Assembly (NCBI GenBank): GCA_034522055.1
Contig: JAXHLS010000002.1
Coordinates: 3,615,549 to 3,679,548 of the forward strand
Length of the DNA stretch: 64,000 nucleotides
Source of the DNA: Gammaproteobacteria bacterium
GTDB taxonomy: Bacteria; Pseudomonadota; Gammaproteobacteria; JAABTG01
Direction: 5' to 3'
Part shown: positions 10,960 through 60,920 of the stretch, in pieces
Layout of the letters: each line of letters opens with the position of its first letter
How positions within the stretch are numbered: position 1 is the first letter of the stretch
Position numbers and translations under genes: made by a program
Notes under the pieces: generated by a model
Seen by the model: the letters and a program-made list of their open reading frames with translations, nothing else
Told to the model about the DNA's origin: nothing
Databases searched by the model: none

Positions 10960-11337
10960 TCAATCGGCAGCGGCGAACTCGGCGCTCAGGGAGAAGGCCA
11001 CCACGTCTGCCGGTCCCTTCACCACCGTGGTCATGAAGTTCTCGATGGCCCCGGCGTAGAGTTCCGGTGAGTAAGGGCGGCGGGAGCGCTCCGAGTGGCC
11101 GTAGCCCGGCAGCTCGGGGGCGAACACCGGGCGGCGGCCGCGGTAATGGTCGAACAGCGGACGCATCTCGAAGGCGCTGGGGGCCGCGTTGATGCTGTGG
11201 AGGAGCACCAGGGGGTGGCCCGCCGGGCCCTCGTCCGCGTAGTAGGCGATGCGCCCCGCCCGGGGCGACCGGATCTCCGCGCGCCGGGTGTCCAGGGCCT
11301 CGGGCCGCCCGGCTTCCCATGCCGGGCGGGGCGGCAT
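10960..11337 (-). pseudogene. Truncated alpha/beta hydrolase (N-terminal half)
   Basis: 125 aa. RIAYYADEGPAGHPLVLLHS, the AAPSAFEMRPLFDHYRG loop and APELPGYGHSERS are the first half of a classic alpha/beta hydrolase (residues following the HxS oxyanion strand). The frame stops at AFSLSAEFAAAD, right at the nucleophile elbow (Ser in FSLSAEF), so the acid and His are missing. The stop is immediately followed by the RibD-like gene, suggesting a deletion that fused the two loci. An upstream in-frame ATG at 11439 is less likely. Probably non-functional. Confidence 0.65.
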
Positions 11338-11356
11338 CAGTCGCCACCGCGGGCAA

Positions 11357-11851
11357 TCACTGGATGGGTATGGAGGCGTAGCCCTGGGCGTGGTAGCCGG
11401 TGAGGGAGACGAAGGTGTTGCCGACGGGTTCGATGCCATCGAGAAGGGAGGCGCTGTCGACTTTGGACAGTCTCATGGCCACGGAGCAGGCCTCCATGCG
11501 GGCCCCGGCCCGTTGGAGGTCGGCCAGTTGTTCCGCGACGCGGTCCAGGTGCTCGAAGTCCGTTAGCTCCGCCTGTTCCCGATCCTCGGAGATGAGTTTC
11601 ACCGACGGCCCACGAAACGCCAGTATGACGTCGGGCTCGACATCCTGGCGCCGCAGATCCGCGATGGTTTCCCGGATCACCCCGAGATAGAGGGCCAGCT
11701 TGCCGGGCTCGCCCATGTTGATATCGAACACCACTTTGCCCGTCTCGACACCCCGCAACGCGGCGTCATCCCCGGGCTTGGTTTCGGCGGCGGCCGTGGC
11801 TTGGCTGGCCGCCAGGAGGAGAGCGAGGCAGAGGCTGGTGAGGATTCTCAT
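11357..11851 (-). CDS. Periplasmic DsrE-family protein
   Basis: 164 aa. A clear signal peptide (MRILTSLCLALLLAASQATAA) precedes a DsrE/DsrF-like domain: KVVFDINMGEPGKLALYLGVI, VEPDVILAFRGPSVKLI and AGARMEACSVAMR with one conserved-position cysteine. AAGGAG lies just upstream of the ATG at 11851, supporting this start over longer forms. DsrE-fold proteins bind or carry sulfur or other small molecules; secreted members are common beside sulfur-oxidation genes but their function is not settled. A second secreted DsrE-like protein occurs at 26.5 kb. Confidence 0.8.
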   Translation of the reverse strand: MRILTSLCLALLLAASQATAAAETKPGDDAALRGVETGKVVFDINMGEPGKLALYLGVIRETIADLRRQDVEPDVILAFRGPSVKLISEDREQAELTDFEHLDRVAEQLADLQRAGARMEACSVAMRLSKVDSASLLDGIEPVGNTFVSLTGYHAQGYASIPIQ

Positions 11852-11961
11852 GACGGTTCTCCTTCGGTTTTGAAAAAGGGTTGGCCAATGCTTCCCAAGG
11901 AAGCGCAGGGTTTGAGCGCTGCGCCAGTATAAAGTGCCTTGGAACCCGTGAAGAGGGACTG

Positions 11962-12183
11962 GTAAAAGCACGCCCGGCATCACCGCCACCACCCTCCATG
12001 ACGAATACCCCATCGCACGCCAGGACCTGTGGACGACGGTCCTCGACAAGGAGTTCGAACGCCTGGCGATGCATCCCAGCGATACCCGCTACGAAACCGA
12101 GCTCGGTCATGCATCAGGGTTTGCCGCGGGGGCCGTAGAGGGCAACGTTAATGGCGCAGTGGTCGGTGGAAGATTATTTCTAT
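11962..12183 (+). other. Unassigned open stretch upstream of the Fic gene, possible gene remnant
   Basis: The intergenic region 11852-12339 has no confident gene. On the plus strand, about 74 residues are open (LHDEYPIARQDLW, EFERLAMHPSDTRYE, GFAAGAVEGNVNGAVVGG), protein-like in composition, but with an upstream stop and no ATG, so it may be a remnant. I do not recognise the family. The region from 12184 on carries the Fic promoter. Confidence 0.25.
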
Positions 12184-12258
12184 GAGGATTCTGGAGGTCC
12201 GACCCGCGCTCTCTGATGGCATCGGGTTGTGCTTGAACCCGCGGAGAACTTGCCGCAT

Positions 12259-12339
12259 TTACTCCGCATCGTATGCGGAATAAGTCTTGACTCTGCGGAG
12301 AATACGGCGGATATTCTTATTATAAGTTGCGGAGTTTGA
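12259..12339. promoter_or_regulatory. Candidate operator/promoter of the Fic gene
   Basis: A near-perfect inverted repeat TTACTCCGCAT-CGT-ATGCGGAATAA spans 12259-12283 (one mismatch between arms). The half-site TGCGGAG recurs at 12293-12299 and 12330-12336, and CGCGGAG at 12239-12245, so the motif is repeated up to the Fic start at 12340. AT-rich TATTCTTATTATAAG between the last two half-sites could hold the -10 region. The Fic protein carries a C-terminal winged-helix-like domain, so autoregulation is plausible but inferred. Confidence 0.55.
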
Positions 12340-13464
12340 ATGTATATCTGGGAACAAAAAGACTGGCCAAAGCTGATAGGGGACTGCAAAGCCCTGTCGC
12401 CGCTGCTTGCGCATGTCTCAAGGGCGCAGGGCCGTCTGCTGGGGCGGATGGAATCGCTGGGTTTTGCCCTGCGAACAGAGGCACATTTGAGCACCCTGAC
12501 CCAGGATGTTGTGCAATCCAGCGATATAGAAGGGGAGAAGCTCGAACCCGAGCAGGTCCGCTCGTCCATCGCCCGGCGGCTTGGCGTCGATATTGGGGGC
12601 AGCATCCCGGCCGATCGGAATGTTGAAGGCGTGGTTGAGATGATGATGGACGCCACCGGCAATTATACCGCCCCACTCACCGAAGACCGGTTGTTTGGCT
12701 GGCATGCCGCGTTGTTTCCGACGGGACGCAGCGGAATGTTCAAGATCACTGTCGGTGATTGGCGTGATGATGCCAATGGTCCGATGCAGGTGGTCTCAGG
12801 TCCGGTCGGCAAACAACAGATCCACTATGAAGCCCCCCCGGCTGAACGGCTGCCGACCGAGGTTGCCGCTTTTCTGCGCTGGTTCGAGTCCGGGAAGGAT
12901 ATTGACCCGCTCCTGGCCGCGGGACTGGCGCACTTGTGGTTTGTGACGCTTCACCCGTTCGATGATGGCAACGGGCGCATCGCGCGGGCGATTGCCGATA
13001 TGGCCCTGGCGCGCTCTGAAGGGACGGGACAACGCTTTTACAGCATGTCCGCGCAGATCCGGACCGAGCGCAATGCTTATTACGACATCCTGAAAACCAC
13101 ACAAAACGGCCCATGTGACGTCACGGTTTGGCAGACGTGGTTTTTGAACTGCCTGCTGCGCGCCATAGAGGGGGCCGACAGCATCATGGAAACTGTGCTG
13201 GCCAAGGCGCGATTTTGGGAGCGCTTTGCCAAAGCGCCGCTGAACGAACGGCAGATCAAAGTGCTGAACCGGGTAATGGATGGCTTTGAAGGCACGCTGA
13301 CGACATCGAAGTGGGCCAAGCTGGGGAAATGCTCCCAGGACACGGCCTATCGAGACATCCTCGATTTGATCGTGCGCGGGGCCCTGCAAAAGGAACCTGG
13401 TGGTGGTCGCAGCACCAGCTACTCGGTCATCCTGCACCATGCGCATCCAACAACGGCCATCTAA
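12340..13464 (+). CDS. Fic family AMP-transferase with built-in inhibitory helix
   Basis: 374 aa. N-terminal DUF4172-like region with the inhibitory motif SSDIEGEKL (S/TxxxEG, residues ~60-70), Fic core at ~195-225 with the canonical HPFDDGNGRIAR loop (catalytic His, anion-binding GNGR), and a C-terminal winged-helix-like domain (~290-365). The intact Fic motif predicts AMP transfer to protein Ser/Thr/Tyr; the upstream Glu should hold the enzyme inactive until released (class II type). The target is unknown. It is a single gene with its own repeat-rich promoter and no antitoxin partner, as expected for self-inhibited Fic proteins. Confidence 0.92.
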   Translation: MYIWEQKDWPKLIGDCKALSPLLAHVSRAQGRLLGRMESLGFALRTEAHLSTLTQDVVQSSDIEGEKLEPEQVRSSIARRLGVDIGGSIPADRNVEGVVEMMMDATGNYTAPLTEDRLFGWHAALFPTGRSGMFKITVGDWRDDANGPMQVVSGPVGKQQIHYEAPPAERLPTEVAAFLRWFESGKDIDPLLAAGLAHLWFVTLHPFDDGNGRIARAIADMALARSEGTGQRFYSMSAQIRTERNAYYDILKTTQNGPCDVTVWQTWFLNCLLRAIEGADSIMETVLAKARFWERFAKAPLNERQIKVLNRVMDGFEGTLTTSKWAKLGKCSQDTAYRDILDLIVRGALQKEPGGGRSTSYSVILHHAHPTTAI

Positions 13465-13579
13465 CTCACCCACACCCGTCCCCCTGAGCAGGAACCAGGG
13501 GCCGCGCAACGCCACCCTTTTAACGCCCCAGCCCGACAGCCTGCGGTGGGTTCCGGCTCGGCGCCGGGTGTAGGCGTCG

Positions 13580-13690
13580 GGGCCGGGATGTCGGGATGAA
13601 TCCCGACCTACATCCGTGCCGTAGGAACGCGCGGCGCCTCGCACCGCTAGGTTGGACTTGTAGGTCGGGCTTCAGCCCGACAGTAACGCT
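13580..13690. repeat. REP-like palindromes, isolated copy of the 4.8-5.8 kb family
   Basis: GTCGGGATGAATCCCGAC at 13590-13607 followed by CTACATCCGTGCCG, a variable spacer, and TGTAGGTCGGGCTTCAGCCCGACAG at about 13658-13683 reproduce one unit of the large array. They lie between the Fic gene and the convergent HhH gene. The rest of 13465-13810 shows nothing further. Confidence 0.8.
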
Positions 13691-13810
13691 TGTAAGTGCC
13701 ATCTACAATGGAAAACAAGTCTGTTATCCATATGCGTATTCCATGGCCATTCGCCCACCCGTTCCAAGGACATCCGTCTTCAGGCGTCCGTTTCAAAGGA
13801 ATTCGGGGAG

Positions 13811-14668
13811 TCATCCCGTGCCGATGCCGTAGTGGCGGAGGCATTCTGCCTCCCTGCCCCTCACCACTCGTTGCCCTTCCAGTGGTCCATGGGTCTCCGT
13901 CACCACGGTGTGCTGGCCCTCCACGTGGTGGTCGTCGTAGAAGTACACCACCACCCAGTCGTCGGTCCGGCCCAACTCGTGGGCGCGGGCGGTGTTGGAG
14001 TACATGGTGGTGAAGTTCCAGCCGTCCTGCTCGGTGTGGAGGATGGGGAGCCAGGCCTTGGCCTCGGGGTTGAAGCGCCGGGGGGCGATCTGCGGCAGGT
14101 GGCCGGTGGCGGCCTGGTCGCGGTACTGGCGGTCGATGGCGAGCAGCAGATCCACGCCGGGGGCGAGGACCGGAGGCACGTGGGTCTGGCGGCGGGTGCG
14201 GCCGAGCAGGGTGGCCAGGGTCGCCCGTAGGGCCGTGAGGCGACGGGTGCCGATGCCTGGGACCTGTTGCAGTCGGCCGTCCCAGGCGGCGTTCTCCAGG
14301 GCCTCCAGGGTGTCGATGTGGAGTTCGTCGTGGATGCGCTCGGCGAGTTCGGGGCCGATGCCGGGCACGGTCTGGAACAGCCTCGTGCCCTCCAGGGTGC
14401 CGCGCAGGCGGTCGAGCTGGGCCCAGCGGCCGGTGGTGACGATCTCCGAGATGGACTGCGCGATGCCGGCGCCCACGCCGGGCAGGGCCTCCAGGCCCTT
14501 GACGCCGCCCGCCGCCAGCAGCGTGTCCACGCCGCGCTCCAAGTGCTCCACGGTGTCCGCGGCGCGGCGGTAGGCGCGCACGCGGAAGGGGTTGGCGCCC
14601 TGCTGCTCCAGGACATCGGCCATCTCCATGAGGCGCATGGCCACCCTGGCGTTGTAGGGCAGGCTCAC
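13811..14668 (-). CDS. Helix-hairpin-helix protein with DNA polymerase X-like N-terminus
   Basis: 285 aa from a GTG start. Residues ~10-60 (LEQQGANPFRVRAYRRAADTV) resemble the 8-kDa DNA-binding domain of family X polymerases. They are followed by several HhH units (LEALPGVGAGIAQSISEI, FQTVPGIGPELAERI, LQQVPGIGTRRLTAL) and a C-terminal domain of ~95 residues (NFTTMYSNTARAHELG, WVVVYFYDDHHVEGQHTVV). No polymerase palm or PHP domain is present, so a DNA-binding/repair accessory role is likely. The GTG overlaps the stop of the upstream gene (GTGA), so the two are translationally coupled. Confidence 0.75.
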   Translation of the reverse strand: MSLPYNARVAMRLMEMADVLEQQGANPFRVRAYRRAADTVEHLERGVDTLLAAGGVKGLEALPGVGAGIAQSISEIVTTGRWAQLDRLRGTLEGTRLFQTVPGIGPELAERIHDELHIDTLEALENAAWDGRLQQVPGIGTRRLTALRATLATLLGRTRRQTHVPPVLAPGVDLLLAIDRQYRDQAATGHLPQIAPRRFNPEAKAWLPILHTEQDGWNFTTMYSNTARAHELGRTDDWVVVYFYDDHHVEGQHTVVTETHGPLEGQRVVRGREAECLRHYGIGTG

Positions 14669-15366
14669 CGCACCGGCCCGGCGTCGAGTTCGATGGGGGT
14701 GATATGGGCATCCACCCGGGACAGGTCGGTGGGCGGGTGGCCGGCAGGTGCCTCGATGTCGGTGACGCCGAAGCGGGCCATGTCGGCCACGGGCAGGGTG
14801 TAGTAGTCGGGGACCTCGTAGGGCGGCATCTTGCCCACCCAGGCGAGGTGGCCGTCGACGCCGATGTCGGCGAAGAAGGCGTCCTCCAGGGCCGCCAGGC
14901 GCTCGGCCGCGACGCGGGCACGGGTCCGGGCGGTGGCCGCGTCTTCGCCGTGCCGCGCCATGCGCGCGGCGGCGTCGTCCCGCCACAAGCCGGTCTCCAC
15001 CAGATGGCGGTAGCTGCCATGCCAGGCCACCACTGCCCCGGGGCGGATGACTTTGCGCCGGCCGGCGGGGAACACGTAGTTGGCGCAGGCGGACAGGCAG
15101 TGGCCGACCACCACCACGTCGACGCCGTGCCCGTGCACCCAGCGCCCGAGGGTGATGGCGGCCTCCACGGAGCCGCCCATGGAGGTGATGGCGAGTTCGG
15201 TCACGGGCCTGTCTGCGACACCCTCGAAGAAGGCGCGGTTGGCCCCGGCGTCGATGTCGCCGCGGTAGGTGGCGGTCCCGGCGATGGCCGGAGGGATGGC
15301 CGCAGTGGTGGCGAGGAGGGCGGTCAGCAACAAAGGCGGGATACGGGCCATGGTGATGGGTGGCAA
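14665..15366 (-). CDS. Secreted ClpP-fold (crotonase-like) protein
   Basis: 233 aa. A signal peptide (PPLLLTALLATTAAIPPAIAG) is followed by a ClpP/crotonase-like core: AITSMGGSVEAAI (oxyanion glycine loop), VVVVGHCLSACANYVFPAG (candidate catalytic Ser in SAC) and VVAWHGSYR (candidate catalytic His). This arrangement fits periplasmic ClpP-like serine hydrolases. Alternative start at the MARIPP methionine (15351). It overlaps by 4 bp the HhH DNA-binding gene downstream, an unexpected pairing of a periplasmic and a cytoplasmic protein. Confidence 0.72.
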   Translation of the reverse strand: MPPITMARIPPLLLTALLATTAAIPPAIAGTATYRGDIDAGANRAFFEGVADRPVTELAITSMGGSVEAAITLGRWVHGHGVDVVVVGHCLSACANYVFPAGRRKVIRPGAVVAWHGSYRHLVETGLWRDDAAARMARHGEDAATARTRARVAAERLAALEDAFFADIGVDGHLAWVGKMPPYEVPDYYTLPVADMARFGVTDIEAPAGHPPTDLSRVDAHITPIELDAGPVR

Positions 15367-15535
15367 TCCGTTGGTCGAAGGTGGTTTGGGGCTACCAGGC
15401 CCAGTTTACCTCACGGCGCCCCGGGCGCAGGGCCCCGGCCCGCCCCTTGAACCCCCGGGTTCCGCCTATAGAATGCGCGCTCCGGCGGCGCAGGCCGCCT
15501 CGACCCTGGTGTGTTTACTGTAAGGAGATGGATTC

Positions 15536-15916
15536 ATGACGAGCTGTCCTTTCTGCAAGGCCGACCCCAGCGGGCTCTTCTGGGAATCGGATCGGGTACG
15601 GGTGATGTGGGACAGCCGTCCCCTCACGGACGGCCATACCCTGGTGGTGCCTGTCCGCCATGTGGCCTCCTACTTCGAGACCACCATCGAGGAGCGTACC
15701 GCCCTGGCCGCGGCCCTGGACGTGGCGAAGGCGGCGGTGGAGGAGCGCTACCACCCCGATGGCTACAACATCGGCATCAACGACGCCCCCGCGGCCGGGC
15801 AGACGGTCCCCCACTGCCACATTCACCTGATCCCCCGTTACGAAGGAGACACCGCCGATCCCCGGGGCGGCGTGCGCTGGATCCTCCCGGACCGGGCCCG
15901 CTATTGGCAGAGCTGA
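15536..15916 (+). CDS. HIT family nucleotide hydrolase
   Basis: 126 aa. The histidine triad HCHIHLIPR near residues 100-108 contains the nucleophilic middle His, and the N-terminus CPFCKAD gives part of a zinc site. HIT proteins hydrolyse or transfer nucleotide monophosphates from dinucleoside polyphosphates or phosphoramidates. AAGGAG lies about 9 bases before the ATG. It is divergent from the ClpP-fold gene. Confidence 0.88.
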   Translation: MTSCPFCKADPSGLFWESDRVRVMWDSRPLTDGHTLVVPVRHVASYFETTIEERTALAAALDVAKAAVEERYHPDGYNIGINDAPAAGQTVPHCHIHLIPRYEGDTADPRGGVRWILPDRARYWQS

Positions 15917-16197
15917 GGCCTTGGTGTCGGCCAGGCAGAGGCCGAGCAGATGTTCTCTGATTGCCCCGCGATACCCCGCCTGGGCTTCAGGCCACCCGGT
16001 TCCTCACGGCCAAGTGCGGGATTGCCTGCCAGGCGCAGGGCCCAGTTCCACAGGGCCGAGTCCTGCACCGGTAACACCAGGAAGAAGTGTTCGAGAATCG
16101 CAAGCCTCAGTAGAGTGGCCACCAGGACCGTGGCGGTCTTTTCGAAGTCACCGGTACCCTCACCCGTGATGGTCGCCAGCACGAACTCTGGATCATC
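15901..16197 (-). pseudogene. puhE: Remnant of photosynthetic complex assembly gene puhE
   Basis: The minus frame from about 16190 contains FVLATITG, then VLVATLLRLAILEHFFLVLP and ALWNWALRL, the conserved C-terminal membrane segment of PuhE (DUF3623), an assembly factor for the phototrophic reaction centre. Upstream residues of this frame are low-complexity and unlike PuhE, and no start is present, so only the last ~60 residues plus a tail survive. It lies directly after the heme oxygenase gene on the same strand, matching photosynthesis gene cluster order in some purple bacteria. Region 16198-16331 holds no other recognisable gene. Confidence 0.55.
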
Positions 16198-16331
16198 GGA
16201 GGCATGGCGTTGCTGGCGATGGGCGGAGTGGGCCAGGCCTTGACCACGGCGTGGGGGATTCGGTGGCGCGCACGGCCAAGCTGCTGGAGTGCCTCTATCG
16301 CTACCGCGCCCACGCCGCCGGCGGCGAATGA

Positions 16332-16994
16332 CTACGGCCCAGGGTTGGCGGCCTCCTCGACCGACTGGGATAGGGCGATGTTGCACTCGAAGGCGTAGCG
16401 GGCCTCCGCCACCATCTCCGCCGTGTCGAGCGCAGGGGCGAGGCGGTCCAGGGCGGCGCGGTAATCGGCGATGCAACGGGGTACGTCGGGGATGGCGGGG
16501 AAATGGTAAAAGCCTAGTTCCCGGGTTGTGAGACCCAGGGTCTCTCCGAGCACGCGGCTGAGGATGCGCCCGCCGTTCAGATCCCCTAGATAACGGACGT
16601 AGGCATGGGCCGCGAGGCCGGCGGCGGACACCTCTTCGACGCGCTGTTGGTAGGCGGCGCCCGCCTCAAGCAGGGGGATCTCGTGGCGCCAGCGGGCCCC
16701 GGCCAAGTGCCGAAGGTCCCGTTCCAGGGCCGCGGCCCGGTAGAGACCGGGGCGGGCCAGTTCTCGCAGCGGGCCGTCGCCGGCCGCCTCGAGGCGCCGT
16801 TCCATGGCGGCGTAGACGGGCTCCAGGTTGCGCAGCAGCAGCAGGTAGGCGCCATGCCCGGCGGTGCCCGCCAGCAATTCGCGGATGACGCCTGTGCGTT
16901 CCGCCCGTTTATGGACGTCGCGGGTGGCTTCCCGCAGGGCCAGGGAGAGGGGACGGCCGTTCTTGACCAGGGCTGCGGGGCTGGGCTCGGGCAT
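16332..16994 (-). CDS. Heme oxygenase
   Basis: 220 aa. LREATRDVHKRAERTGVIREL carries the proximal heme-ligand His and VRYLGDLNGGRILSRVL is the flexible distal-helix motif (GDLxGG) of heme oxygenases, which open heme to biliverdin, CO and iron. The ATG at 16994 begins MPEPSPAALV; longer frames add proline-rich shadow sequence. Heme oxygenase genes lie between acsF and puhE in some purple-bacterial photosynthesis clusters, and here it is flanked by decayed pieces of exactly those genes. It appears intact and may now serve iron release or heme turnover. No bacteriophytochrome is nearby. Confidence 0.85.
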   Translation of the reverse strand: MPEPSPAALVKNGRPLSLALREATRDVHKRAERTGVIRELLAGTAGHGAYLLLLRNLEPVYAAMERRLEAAGDGPLRELARPGLYRAAALERDLRHLAGARWRHEIPLLEAGAAYQQRVEEVSAAGLAAHAYVRYLGDLNGGRILSRVLGETLGLTTRELGFYHFPAIPDVPRCIADYRAALDRLAPALDTAEMVAEARYAFECNIALSQSVEEAANPGP

Positions 16995-17106
16995 GGAGTG
17001 GGGTCGCCGGCGGCCGGGGATGAATGGCGTACAGCATAGCAGAGGGTGCGGTTGGGTCGGCCTTTCCCCTGGGCCGGGCATGGCGGGTGCGGGTGGCGGG
17101 TGGAGC

Positions 17107-17364
17107 TTACCAGGCGGGCGCCATGCGCACCTGTCCCGGAGTCTCGTTGTGCTTCACCGGCAGCAGATACAGGCGGCCGAATACCGTGGCGGCCCGCAGG
17201 GCGAGGATGCCACGGCGTGCCAGGGAGACCAGGCCGCCCCGTTTCTTGGCCTCGAGGACGGCGATGTTGACCATGATATTCGCGCCCTCGCCGCGGGCGA
17301 TGACATCGATCCAGGGTGCCTCCGTGAGCACCTGCTGGTACATGAAGGTGGCATGGATTCCCTC
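17107..17364 (-). pseudogene. Chimeric remnant: bchE-like start joined to acsF-like end
   Basis: The frame begins abruptly with [25 protein letters not shown], the end of the B12-binding domain of BchE, the oxygen-independent Mg-protoporphyrin ester cyclase. It then changes near [13 protein letters not shown] into [10 protein letters not shown] and VRMAPAW, which I recognise as the C-terminus of AcsF, the oxygen-dependent cyclase. Both enzymes catalyse the same bacteriochlorophyll step by unrelated mechanisms. All catalytic parts (radical-SAM cluster, diiron site) are missing. A deletion joining the two genes is the simplest explanation. The AcsF part is less certain than the BchE part. Confidence 0.55.
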
Positions 17365-17466
17365 ATGCAGAAGAAAAACCCCGCAGGTTCCTTGAGGACC
17401 TGACCTGGGCCAAGCGCTTCCTGCTGCTGTTCCGCGCCGTGCAGTGACGGGCGGCGGGTGCGGCCA

Positions 17467-17946
17467 TCACCGGCCGTTGTCGTCCTCCTCCTCCAGGAAC
17501 CGTTCGTTGCCGGCGGTGAGGCGTTGGAACACGCCGAGCCCCATGAGCAGGAAGACCGAGGCCACCAGGAGGGCGGTGGGGTAGAGCAGGTTGGTCATGT
17601 TGGTGGTGCCGGTCTGGAAGATGAATACCAGGGCCTCCAGGGCGCTGGCGATGATGACGATCACCAGAAACTTGGTCAGGGTGCGCCGGGCCTCCCGGGC
17701 CGACCGTAACTCGCGGTCCCGCACCACCTGCTCCTCGAACAGGTACTTGGCGATGTCGAACACCGCCATGGAGATGACGATGAGACCGATGGCATCGAGG
17801 GAGACGTCGATGTAGGGTCGCCCATGGTACAGGGCATGGCCCACCTCCCACAGGCCGTAACCGATGAGCAGCAGGCTGATGAGCAGCAGGGCGATGCTGG
17901 CCAGCAGGTAGACCAGAGCGTTGGCGTAGTCGAGCAGCTTCATCAT
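17467..17946 (-). CDS. Four-helix inner-membrane protein downstream of CHAD gene
   Basis: 159 aa, starting at MMKLLDYANALVYLLASIALL. Four hydrophobic segments are evident (about 8-35, 48-70, 95-118, 125-145) with an acidic end (FLEEEDDN). A charged stretch EEQVVRDRELRSAREARRTL lies between helices 2 and 3. It resembles uncharacterised small membrane proteins of proteobacteria; function is unknown. The start lies 20 bp after the CHAD stop, so the two form an operon. The interval 17365-17466 shows only out-of-frame remnants. Confidence 0.7.
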   Translation of the reverse strand: MMKLLDYANALVYLLASIALLLISLLLIGYGLWEVGHALYHGRPYIDVSLDAIGLIVISMAVFDIAKYLFEEQVVRDRELRSAREARRTLTKFLVIVIIASALEALVFIFQTGTTNMTNLLYPTALLVASVFLLMGLGVFQRLTAGNERFLEEEDDNGR

Positions 17947-17966
17947 GGTCTCGTTGCCGTCTGTTG

Positions 17967-59028: not shown

Positions 59029-59180
59029 GCACGGCGGGCGCCCTTCGTGATAACCGGCTCCCCCTTTTCCCTGCCATCAGGCAGCCGGCTGCGACACCGG
59101 TTTTACCCCGTTGGCGTGCCCGGGACGTTTACCCCGGATGAGAGACAGCCCATCCACTGGAGTTCCCGCGGGAGAACGTC

Positions 59181-60920
59181 ATGAAGAAACCTGTAATCAT
59201 CGGCCTGGTGGTCGCGGTGTTGCTGGCCGCAGCCTGTGCCCCCACATCGAAAGAGGATACGGGATCCGCCGTGACGCCGGTGCCGGATGGCAGCGGCGCG
59301 CCGCCGCCGGGGGTGACGGTGGAGCCCGCCGCGCCCGGGGCCGGTGGCGTACGCCACGAGCTGGCGGTCACGCCGTCGCGACCCAAACAGGCCCACACGG
59401 CGCACCCGGCCGGTCGCCCGGTGGCGCGGGCCGACACCTTCGCCGCCGATCTCGCGGCCCTGCGTCCCCCCGCGGAGCCGGTGAATCGCGAGAACTACCA
59501 TGGCTTCCATGACCATCCCCTGCGGCTGGCCGCGGAGGATCCCTTTTCCACTTTCAGCATCGACGTGGATACCGGCGCCTACAGCAATGTGCGCCGCCTG
59601 CTCCAGCGCGGCAGCATGCCTCCGGCGCACGCCGTGCGGGCCGAGGAGCTGATTAACTACTTCGGCTACGATTATCCCGCGCCCGCCGGTCGGGAGCGTC
59701 CCTTCCGGGTCACCACGGAGATAGGCCCCACCCCCTGGAACCCCCAAACCCGGTTGTTGCACATCGGCCTCAAGGGTTACGCGGTACCGCCTGACCAACT
59801 TCCCGCCAGCAACCTGGTGTTCCTGGTGGACGTGTCCGGCTCCATGCGCGCCCCCGCCAAGCTGGGCCTGCTCAAGAACGCCCTGCGGTTGCTGGTGGGT
59901 CAGCTGGACGGCGATGACCGCATCGCCATCGCCGTCTATGCGGGTGCTGCGGGCACGGTGCTGGAGTCGACCTCGGGGGACCACAAGGCCGCCATCAAGG
60001 CGGCCATCGACGGCCTCACGGCGGGTGGCTCCACCAACGGTGGTGCGGGCATTCGGCTGGCCTACGACCTGGCCCGCCAGGGCTGGATCGAGGGCGGCGT
60101 CAACCGCGTCATCCTCGCCACCGACGGCGACTTCAACTTGGGCATGGTGGACTTCGATGCCCTCGTGGGCCTGGTGGAACGCGAGCGCGGCAGCGGCATC
60201 GGGCTGACCACCCTGGGCCTCGGCGCCGGCAACTACAATGACCACCTGATGGAGCGCCTGGCCGACGCCGGCAACGGCAACCATGCCTATATCGATACCC
60301 TGGCCGAGGCCCGCAAGGTGTTGGTGGAGGAGATGAGCGCGACGCTGTTCACCATCGCCCACGACGTGAAGATTCAGCTCGAGTTCAATCCGGCGGTGGT
60401 GGCGGAATACCGACTCATCGGCTACGAGAACCGGGCCCTGGCGCGCGAGGACTTCGCCAACGACCGGGTGGATGCCGGCGACATCGGTGCCGGCCATACC
60501 GTCACCGCCCTCTACGAACTCACCCTGGTGGACAGCCCCGCCCGGCGCCTCAGCCCCGGGCGCTACCAGACCCCGGTGGTGGCGGACGGCGGCCGCGACG
60601 GCGAGGTGGGACTGCTGCGACTGCGCTACAAGACGGCCCATGACGGCGCCAGCGTCCTCCAGGAGAAGGTGCTGGCGGTGTCGGATAGTGCGCCCCTACT
60701 CGCCGAAACCAGCCAGGATTTTCGTTTCGCCGCCGCCGTGGCCGCCTTCGCCCAGCGCCTGCGGGGCGGCAAGTATCTGGAGGGCTTCGACTACCCTGAA
60801 ATACTGGCCCTGGCCCAGGGTGCCCGCGGTGACGACCCATTCGGCTACCGGGGCGGATTTCTCCCCCTCGTGGCCCTGGCCGAGGCGCTGGAGTCGCCGC
60901 CGGCGGCGGGGGGGAAGTAG
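59181..60920 (+). CDS. YfbK-like lipoprotein with von Willebrand factor A domain
   Basis: 579 aa. Lipobox VLLAAACAPT (lipidated Cys ~19), a Pro/Ala-rich linker, a DUF3520-type N-terminal part (FSTFSIDVDTGAYSNVRRLL), then the vWA domain with the metal-ion site FLVDVSGSMRAPAKL, GGSTNGGAGI and ATDGDFNLGM (~210-400), and a C-terminal domain (DFRFAAAVAAFAQRLRGGKYLEG). These proteins are often next to an ECF sigma / anti-sigma pair, as here. Function is unknown; surface or periplasmic protein binding is likely. Confidence 0.87.
   Translation: MKKPVIIGLVVAVLLAAACAPTSKEDTGSAVTPVPDGSGAPPPGVTVEPAAPGAGGVRHELAVTPSRPKQAHTAHPAGRPVARADTFAADLAALRPPAEPVNRENYHGFHDHPLRLAAEDPFSTFSIDVDTGAYSNVRRLLQRGSMPPAHAVRAEELINYFGYDYPAPAGRERPFRVTTEIGPTPWNPQTRLLHIGLKGYAVPPDQLPASNLVFLVDVSGSMRAPAKLGLLKNALRLLVGQLDGDDRIAIAVYAGAAGTVLESTSGDHKAAIKAAIDGLTAGGSTNGGAGIRLAYDLARQGWIEGGVNRVILATDGDFNLGMVDFDALVGLVERERGSGIGLTTLGLGAGNYNDHLMERLADAGNGNHAYIDTLAEARKVLVEEMSATLFTIAHDVKIQLEFNPAVVAEYRLIGYENRALAREDFANDRVDAGDIGAGHTVTALYELTLVDSPARRLSPGRYQTPVVADGGRDGEVGLLRLRYKTAHDGASVLQEKVLAVSDSAPLLAETSQDFRFAAAVAAFAQRLRGGKYLEGFDYPEILALAQGARGDDPFGYRGGFLPLVALAEALESPPAAGGK

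Follow-up and report, generated by a model that had tools for sequence, protein, structure and literature searches.

How a gammaproteobacterial genome came to hold scraps of photosynthesis genes packed around a single whole heme oxygenase (HO) gene is the question raised by a block of about 1.5 kb, in which fragments of four photosynthesis-gene families and one intact HO lie side by side. The window, meaning the whole stretch of 64,000 nucleotides that was analysed, corresponds to bases 3615549-3679548 of contig C2 of the genome (G000), which measures 5.14 Mb in 7 contigs and is 98% complete with 0.9% contamination. A first-pass annotation had interpreted the locus as the relict of a photosynthesis gene cluster (PGC) in which a single gene stayed intact, left by descent from a phototroph. 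The features of the block and its flanks are as follows.

15536-15916, + strand: HIT-family gene, intact, flank (PF01230, E 8.2e-22)
15917-17456, no strand assigned: whole relict block, from the stop of the HIT-family gene to the onset of sequence alignable to the same-genus genome G001 (17457)
16030-16176, - strand: puhE remnant, C-terminal part of about 49 codons (DUF3623; PF12291 positions 203-251 of 256, E 3.1e-12)
16171-16263, + strand: Bch2/PucC-type transporter gene remnant, about 28-31 codons, the weakest of the four scraps
16332-16994, - strand: heme oxygenase, intact, 220 aa from the second ATG (PF01126 positions 2-203 of 204, E 1.8e-44)
17110-17277, - strand: acsF remnant, last 47-56 codons or so with the C-terminal end and stop (HMM E 2.8e-12)
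17260-17373, - strand: bchE remnant, about 26-38 codons from the end of the B12-binding region (TIGR02026 positions 95-135 of 497, E 7.1e-13)
17467-17946, - strand: conserved membrane-protein-like gene, flank, also present in G001 (membrane nature judged by eye)

The C-terminal puhE remnant named in the first-pass annotation was confirmed by Pfam DUF3623 and also by the TIGR03055 PuhE model (E 1.6e-9). A genome-wide search recovered it at E 8.8e-12 as the sole DUF3623 match in the genome, and the best PuhE match in a base-reversed control window reached only E 0.033. The whole domain is absent, with nothing retained outside the 49 positions at its C-terminal end. The fragment described earlier as joining BchE-like to AcsF-like sequence is likewise real, its BchE match reaching to about 17373, slightly beyond the end at 17364 given before. 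The core of the BchE scrap (17284-17361, - strand) shares 21 of 26 residues with BchE of an uncultured Rhodospirillales locus (L058), and searched genome-wide it is the only BchE match in G000 (E 7.9e-12). Against the curated NCBIfam AcsF model the AcsF scrap is weak (E 0.12 and 0.33); the strong match listed above was obtained with an HMM of 9 AcsF sequences from fetched clusters, run over the window's 1382 six-frame pieces. The scrap was also recovered in a genome-wide search (E 1.8e-8) and by blastp against the AcsF of locus L014 (E 4.8e-14, in a comparison of 10 sequences), and nothing in the base-reversed window matched AcsF with an E of 1 or below. Significant similarity was thus found for all three proteins originally named. 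Both cyclase pieces are severely truncated: of the 361 profile positions of AcsF roughly the final 50 are kept, without the diiron-binding region, and positions 95-135 alone remain of BchE, without the radical SAM domain, both of which we take to lie outside the retained pieces.

A fourth scrap, absent from the first-pass annotation, emerged when every frame of the block was compared with the fetched clusters, a six-frame sweep whose many wrong-frame or low-complexity matches were left uncounted. It corresponds to a Bch2-type gene that in many of these clusters is flanked by bchG and bchP, and it matches that gene in 33 of the 90 loci searched, mostly at 46-58% over 27-31 residues. An HMM of 34 proteins (33 of Bch2 type and one LhaA paralogue from locus L013) detected it at E 6.9e-6 with zero matches in the reversed window, and the Bch2 part of a joined whole-genome query fell exactly at 16171-16263 (E 0.0018). 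No Pfam or NCBIfam model matched this scrap. Four PGC families are therefore matched within 1.35 kb of a 5.1-Mb genome (16030-17373), as truncated PuhE, AcsF and BchE and, more weakly, Bch2. Two + strand frame ends beside the remnants, at about 16259-16331 and 17377-17447, both end in stops and look like gene tails; they matched no Pfam or NCBIfam model and are perhaps further debris.

Searches of the remainder of the genome recovered none of the core photosynthesis genes sought. There were no Photo_RC matches (pufL/M), and a joined query containing BchH, BchB, BchN, BchG, PuhA and AcsF returned the AcsF scrap as its only match, the first five giving nothing at E<=10 genome-wide; nor did BchE exceed its cut-off anywhere else. 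A second joined query (Bch2, LhaA, BchP, BchM, BchF, PuhB, PuhE) matched at six places with E<=10; two fall in the block, PuhE giving the best match. Outside the block lie three matches to the BchM part and one to the BchP part, the best at E 3e-5 with 29% identity; their low scores and long open frames mark them as probable paralogues. A BchD-like match at 59706-60143 lies inside a long open frame (59142-60917) and is probably a paralogue of general ATPase/VWA type. About 35 kb flanking the window (L040, L041) held no PGC-protein match at E<=1e-3. Short fragments elsewhere may escape these genome-wide searches. The first-pass annotation had allowed that the scraps might be simple duplicates of a complete cluster elsewhere; this was rejected, as no Photo_RC, BchH/B/N/G, PuhA or over-cutoff BchE was found.

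The BchE and AcsF pieces are fused in frame within a single open frame (17110-17466, - strand) of 119 codons from stop to stop, or 78 aa from the first ATG, with no interrupting stop. The junction lies between about 17250 and 17283, where the ends of the two matches overlap. A functional fused cyclase was rejected because most of both enzymes is missing. In L058, puhE, bchE and an acsF truncated where the stretch ends share one strand within 5 kb (L058:15776-20606); about 2.2 kb separates acsF from bchE, and ppsR, bphP and an HO gene lie further along. Since a deletion with its ends in bchE and acsF of an L058-like cluster yields just such a frame, the apparent chimera is most readily understood as the scar of a deletion, and an in-frame outcome of such a deletion is expected once in three. 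The fusion of the two cyclases had been called remarkable; with bchE and acsF about 2 kb apart in L058, an ordinary deletion within the cluster suffices. In the accessible text of PMC3176799, bchEJ is placed within the cluster of Congregibacter litoralis KT71, and the acsF of the NOR5/OM60 clade near a BLUF gene.

The HO gene, as first annotated, is intact. It scored 152.4 bits against a PF01126 cut-off of 23, is the only PF01126 match in the genome, and has an alternative in-frame upstream start at 17081 that would extend the product to 249 aa. Comparison with HO-1 structures gave E 2.2e-30 for 1we1 and 1.7e-28 for 1ni6, which we take to be the cyanobacterial and human enzymes, respectively. 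Two characteristic elements of these enzymes are the proximal histidine and the GDLSGG motif of the distal helix. The predicted protein keeps the histidine aligned with the HO-1 PDB chains and the GDLxGG helix, its motif reading GDLNGG with one Ser to Asn change.

Relatives of this HO are rare in its surroundings and frequently tied to photosynthesis genes further afield. None was found in any of the four family mates, a plain single-protein scan of genome contigs confirmed no relative, and a plasmid search returned five records, all below 60% identity (two from Leptospira and one each from Nonomuraea, Kovacikia and Pseudanabaena). In a phylum sample, 4 of 398 genomes, its own included, held a relative at E<=1e-6; two of the other three (G597 and G716, both of the same class) have the gene inside a PGC, and their HOs group in the tree with the HO of a Rubrivivax MAG, which points to Gammaproteobacteria in the wide sense as the class. 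A profile scan of named genomes, from which the best 80 of 335 relatives were kept, placed 44 with PGC genes, 13 with bphP only and 23 with neither; for the first 20 listed the numbers were 15, 4 and 1. These linkage counts apply within the fetched stretch; short contigs hide neighbours, and the profile, with two of its four source sequences cluster-linked, may favour PGC-linked matches. Given how often the relatives are PGC-linked, the HO most likely arrived with the cluster. In the tree it belongs to an open fork of 18 rows, among them HOs of cyanobacteria and actinobacteria, so the topology by itself is no proof of a purple-bacterial source. Two further records stand out. L067, titled Frankia sp. 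RB7, carries a proteobacterial-type PGC with an HO grouping with Bradyrhizobium and is probably mislabelled or contaminated. In L081, a contig of Candidatus Competibacteraceae, an HO adjoins a phytochrome gene and a weak PpsR-like match, and within the 10 kb of this contig no bch or puh gene passed the thresholds.

What the gene might do at present was also considered. A PHY-type phytochrome partner was rejected, the genome holding no PF00360 (PHY) match. As no such phytochrome was found, the likeliest present role of the HO, if any, would be the opening of heme to release iron. The first-pass annotation had called the gene useful, a judgement that would follow solely from its intact frame; after a recent loss some genes would by chance still be whole, which weakens the argument from intactness.

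The arrangement of the block departs from that of the reference clusters. In each of the nine fetched loci that have acsF as well as puhE, the two are immediate neighbours (three further loci have puhE without acsF), and none of the nine has HO between them, as the block does. The available part of PMC3176799 gives the order puhABC-hyp-acsF-puhE in two AAP clades and acsF apart from puhE in the NOR5/OM60 clade, so other orders exist. The position of HO therefore needs a rearrangement, a different or unsampled ancestral order, or a later insertion of HO. Of the cluster-like order on one strand described earlier, the strand holds for PuhE, HO and the BchE-AcsF frame, all on the - strand, but the order is unmatched and the Bch2 scrap lies on the + strand.

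The family comparison drew on five genomes in three genera, the present one included; one of the four mates is 85% complete. G001 aligns to the window at 13940-15360 and 17457-17962, with flank identities of 87% and 91% (the right flank 91% in DNA over 506 bases), and between the two flanks it carries 1.09 kb of unrelated sequence with a glycine/tyrosine-rich frame. Its HIT gene (C290, 88% identical) sits in another context, beside another gene. The fetched stretches of G001 and G002 gave no PGC or HO match, and neither PuhE nor a BchE piece over the cut-off was found in the four other family genomes; because G001 is a draft of 290 contigs, absence from the rest of it is less certain than the difference at the site. 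The region left of the block (11334-15920) is itself a mosaic relative to C290 and C271 of G001 (L036, L037): the G001 gene to the left of HIT can be aligned with the window over 11973-12100 alone, near its start, after which the window has a Fic-like frame, named by reading, and then a segment placed elsewhere in G001. An element of about 105-155 bases (window 13529-13684) recurs many times on contigs C2 and C6, often in tandem; it accounts for nearly all listed rows among the 152 matches of a 6-kb query in G000, with few matches in the relatives' genomes.

Taken together, the block is very probably a collapsed proteobacterial PGC, which included at least bchE, acsF, puhE, a bch2/pucC-type gene and HO, whether its origin was vertical or by transfer. 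The state of the scraps bears on how it was lost. Mean identity to the references is 45.9% for the AcsF scrap and 51.1% for the PuhE scrap, against 43.8% and 47.9%, respectively, among the references themselves, and no stop interrupts the matched stretch of either. Two scraps that differ from functional homologues no more than these differ from one another suggest a recent loss, mostly by deletion, with little time for point mutation. This sign is lacking in the more diverged Bch2 scrap, which has 53.4% identity to its references versus 77.4% among them, these references being mostly alphaproteobacterial by title. A plausible course would begin with the failure of one essential gene, after which the cluster would no longer have been selected. 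Several deletions would have removed most of it, and the opposite orientation of the Bch2 scrap calls for one rearrangement or more. One of the deletions would have joined the middle of bchE in frame to the end of acsF, leaving a short non-functional frame. The HO gene would have stayed whole; in relatives it often lies near a bacteriophytochrome gene inside the cluster, for which it presumably makes the biliverdin chromophore.

Three alternatives to this reading or to a part of it were weighed. Chance similarity has a negligible probability: every piece is short, but the three strongest match at E 7e-13 to 3.1e-12, four PGC families coincide in 1.35 kb, and the base-reversed window yields nothing comparable, a control that refutes chance for PuhE, BchE and AcsF. 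It is also very improbable that the fused frame encodes a new functional small protein. An uninterrupted frame of its length could be read in that sense; GC-rich DNA, however, keeps frames open easily, most of both enzymes is missing, and the BchE piece has no counterpart in the other family genomes. A later insertion of an unrelated HO between the acsF and puhE debris would account for a position seen in none of the nine reference loci and for the lack of a resolved sister in the tree. Such an insertion is nonetheless unlikely, with 57 of the best 80 HO relatives linked to a PGC or a phytochrome and relatives in so few genomes of the phylum sample that an independent landing in the debris would be a coincidence.

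Within the collapsed-cluster reading, with which it is compatible, the possibility that all or part of the PGC was gained by horizontal transfer, perhaps never used, and then lost comes close to an even chance. The absence of PuhE and HO from the four family mates speaks for it, as does the location of the block where flanks are rearranged relative to G001, and the available text of PMC10715153 names transfer as the main force behind photosynthetic traits in Rhodobacterales. Against it, the GC content of the block (0.66-0.71) is like that of its surroundings (0.64-0.73), no mobile-element domain was found in the block frames given to Pfam, and the family evidence comes from four mates, one of them incomplete. 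The earlier view of a relict PGC with one intact gene is thus well supported, but the descent from a phototroph that went with it is indistinguishable from transfer followed by loss, since none of the four mates shows PuhE or HO. A more specific history, in which the lineage recently held a full PGC with both cyclases and with HO in the acsF-puhE region, and kept HO for a light-independent job, is possible but rather doubtful; if it were true, close phototrophic relatives should still exist.

Loss of phototrophy has often been proposed for the Proteobacteria, usually inferred from absence. Legible debris lets a loss, or a gain and loss, be placed on a branch, and here the manner of loss can be read as well, with deletions coming first and two of the scraps showing little decay by point mutation. 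From the locus one would expect phototrophic relatives in a family for which none has turned up in the searches, and it could serve to examine whether a single gene from a dead cluster can be co-opted into heme or iron metabolism.

Several known systems resemble the block in part. Citromicrobium sp. JLT1363, from a PGC-bearing lineage, is held in the accessible part of PMC3338782 to have become chemotrophic through gene loss. It is like the present case in that a PGC lineage loses its phototrophy genes; there, the loss was inferred from a two-genome comparison, whereas here the debris itself is present, and, unlike that lineage, the family of the relict block has PuhE in no other genome examined. 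The available main text of that paper uses none of the words remnant, heme oxygenase and acsF. Remnants of photosynthetic traits were reported for Acetobacteraceae in PMC10715153, as far as its available text goes; these are Alphaproteobacteria and the vestige named there is Rubisco, unlike the block, and heme oxygenase, acsF and bchE are absent from that main text. A literature search that included few subscription papers returned no report of such debris with a surviving HO or of a bchE-acsF join.

The PGC-linked HOs of Bradyrhizobium sp. MOS003 (L052), Acidiphilium sp. PA (L053), Pelagibius sp. (L054) and L058 belong to the same family and are 45-50% identical to the HO of the window. They lie in stretches with PGC genes, near bphP (and ppsR), while the HO of the block lies between pieces of acsF and puhE in a genome without a PHY-domain gene. 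The puhABC-hyp-acsF-puhE arrangement of the AAP clades, as given in the accessible text of PMC3176799, shares with the block acsF before puhE on one strand, and differs in having both genes whole and, in that text, no mention of HO. Loss of phototrophy genes and remnants of photosynthesis were thus already known, and the relict block is one more instance of this known process.
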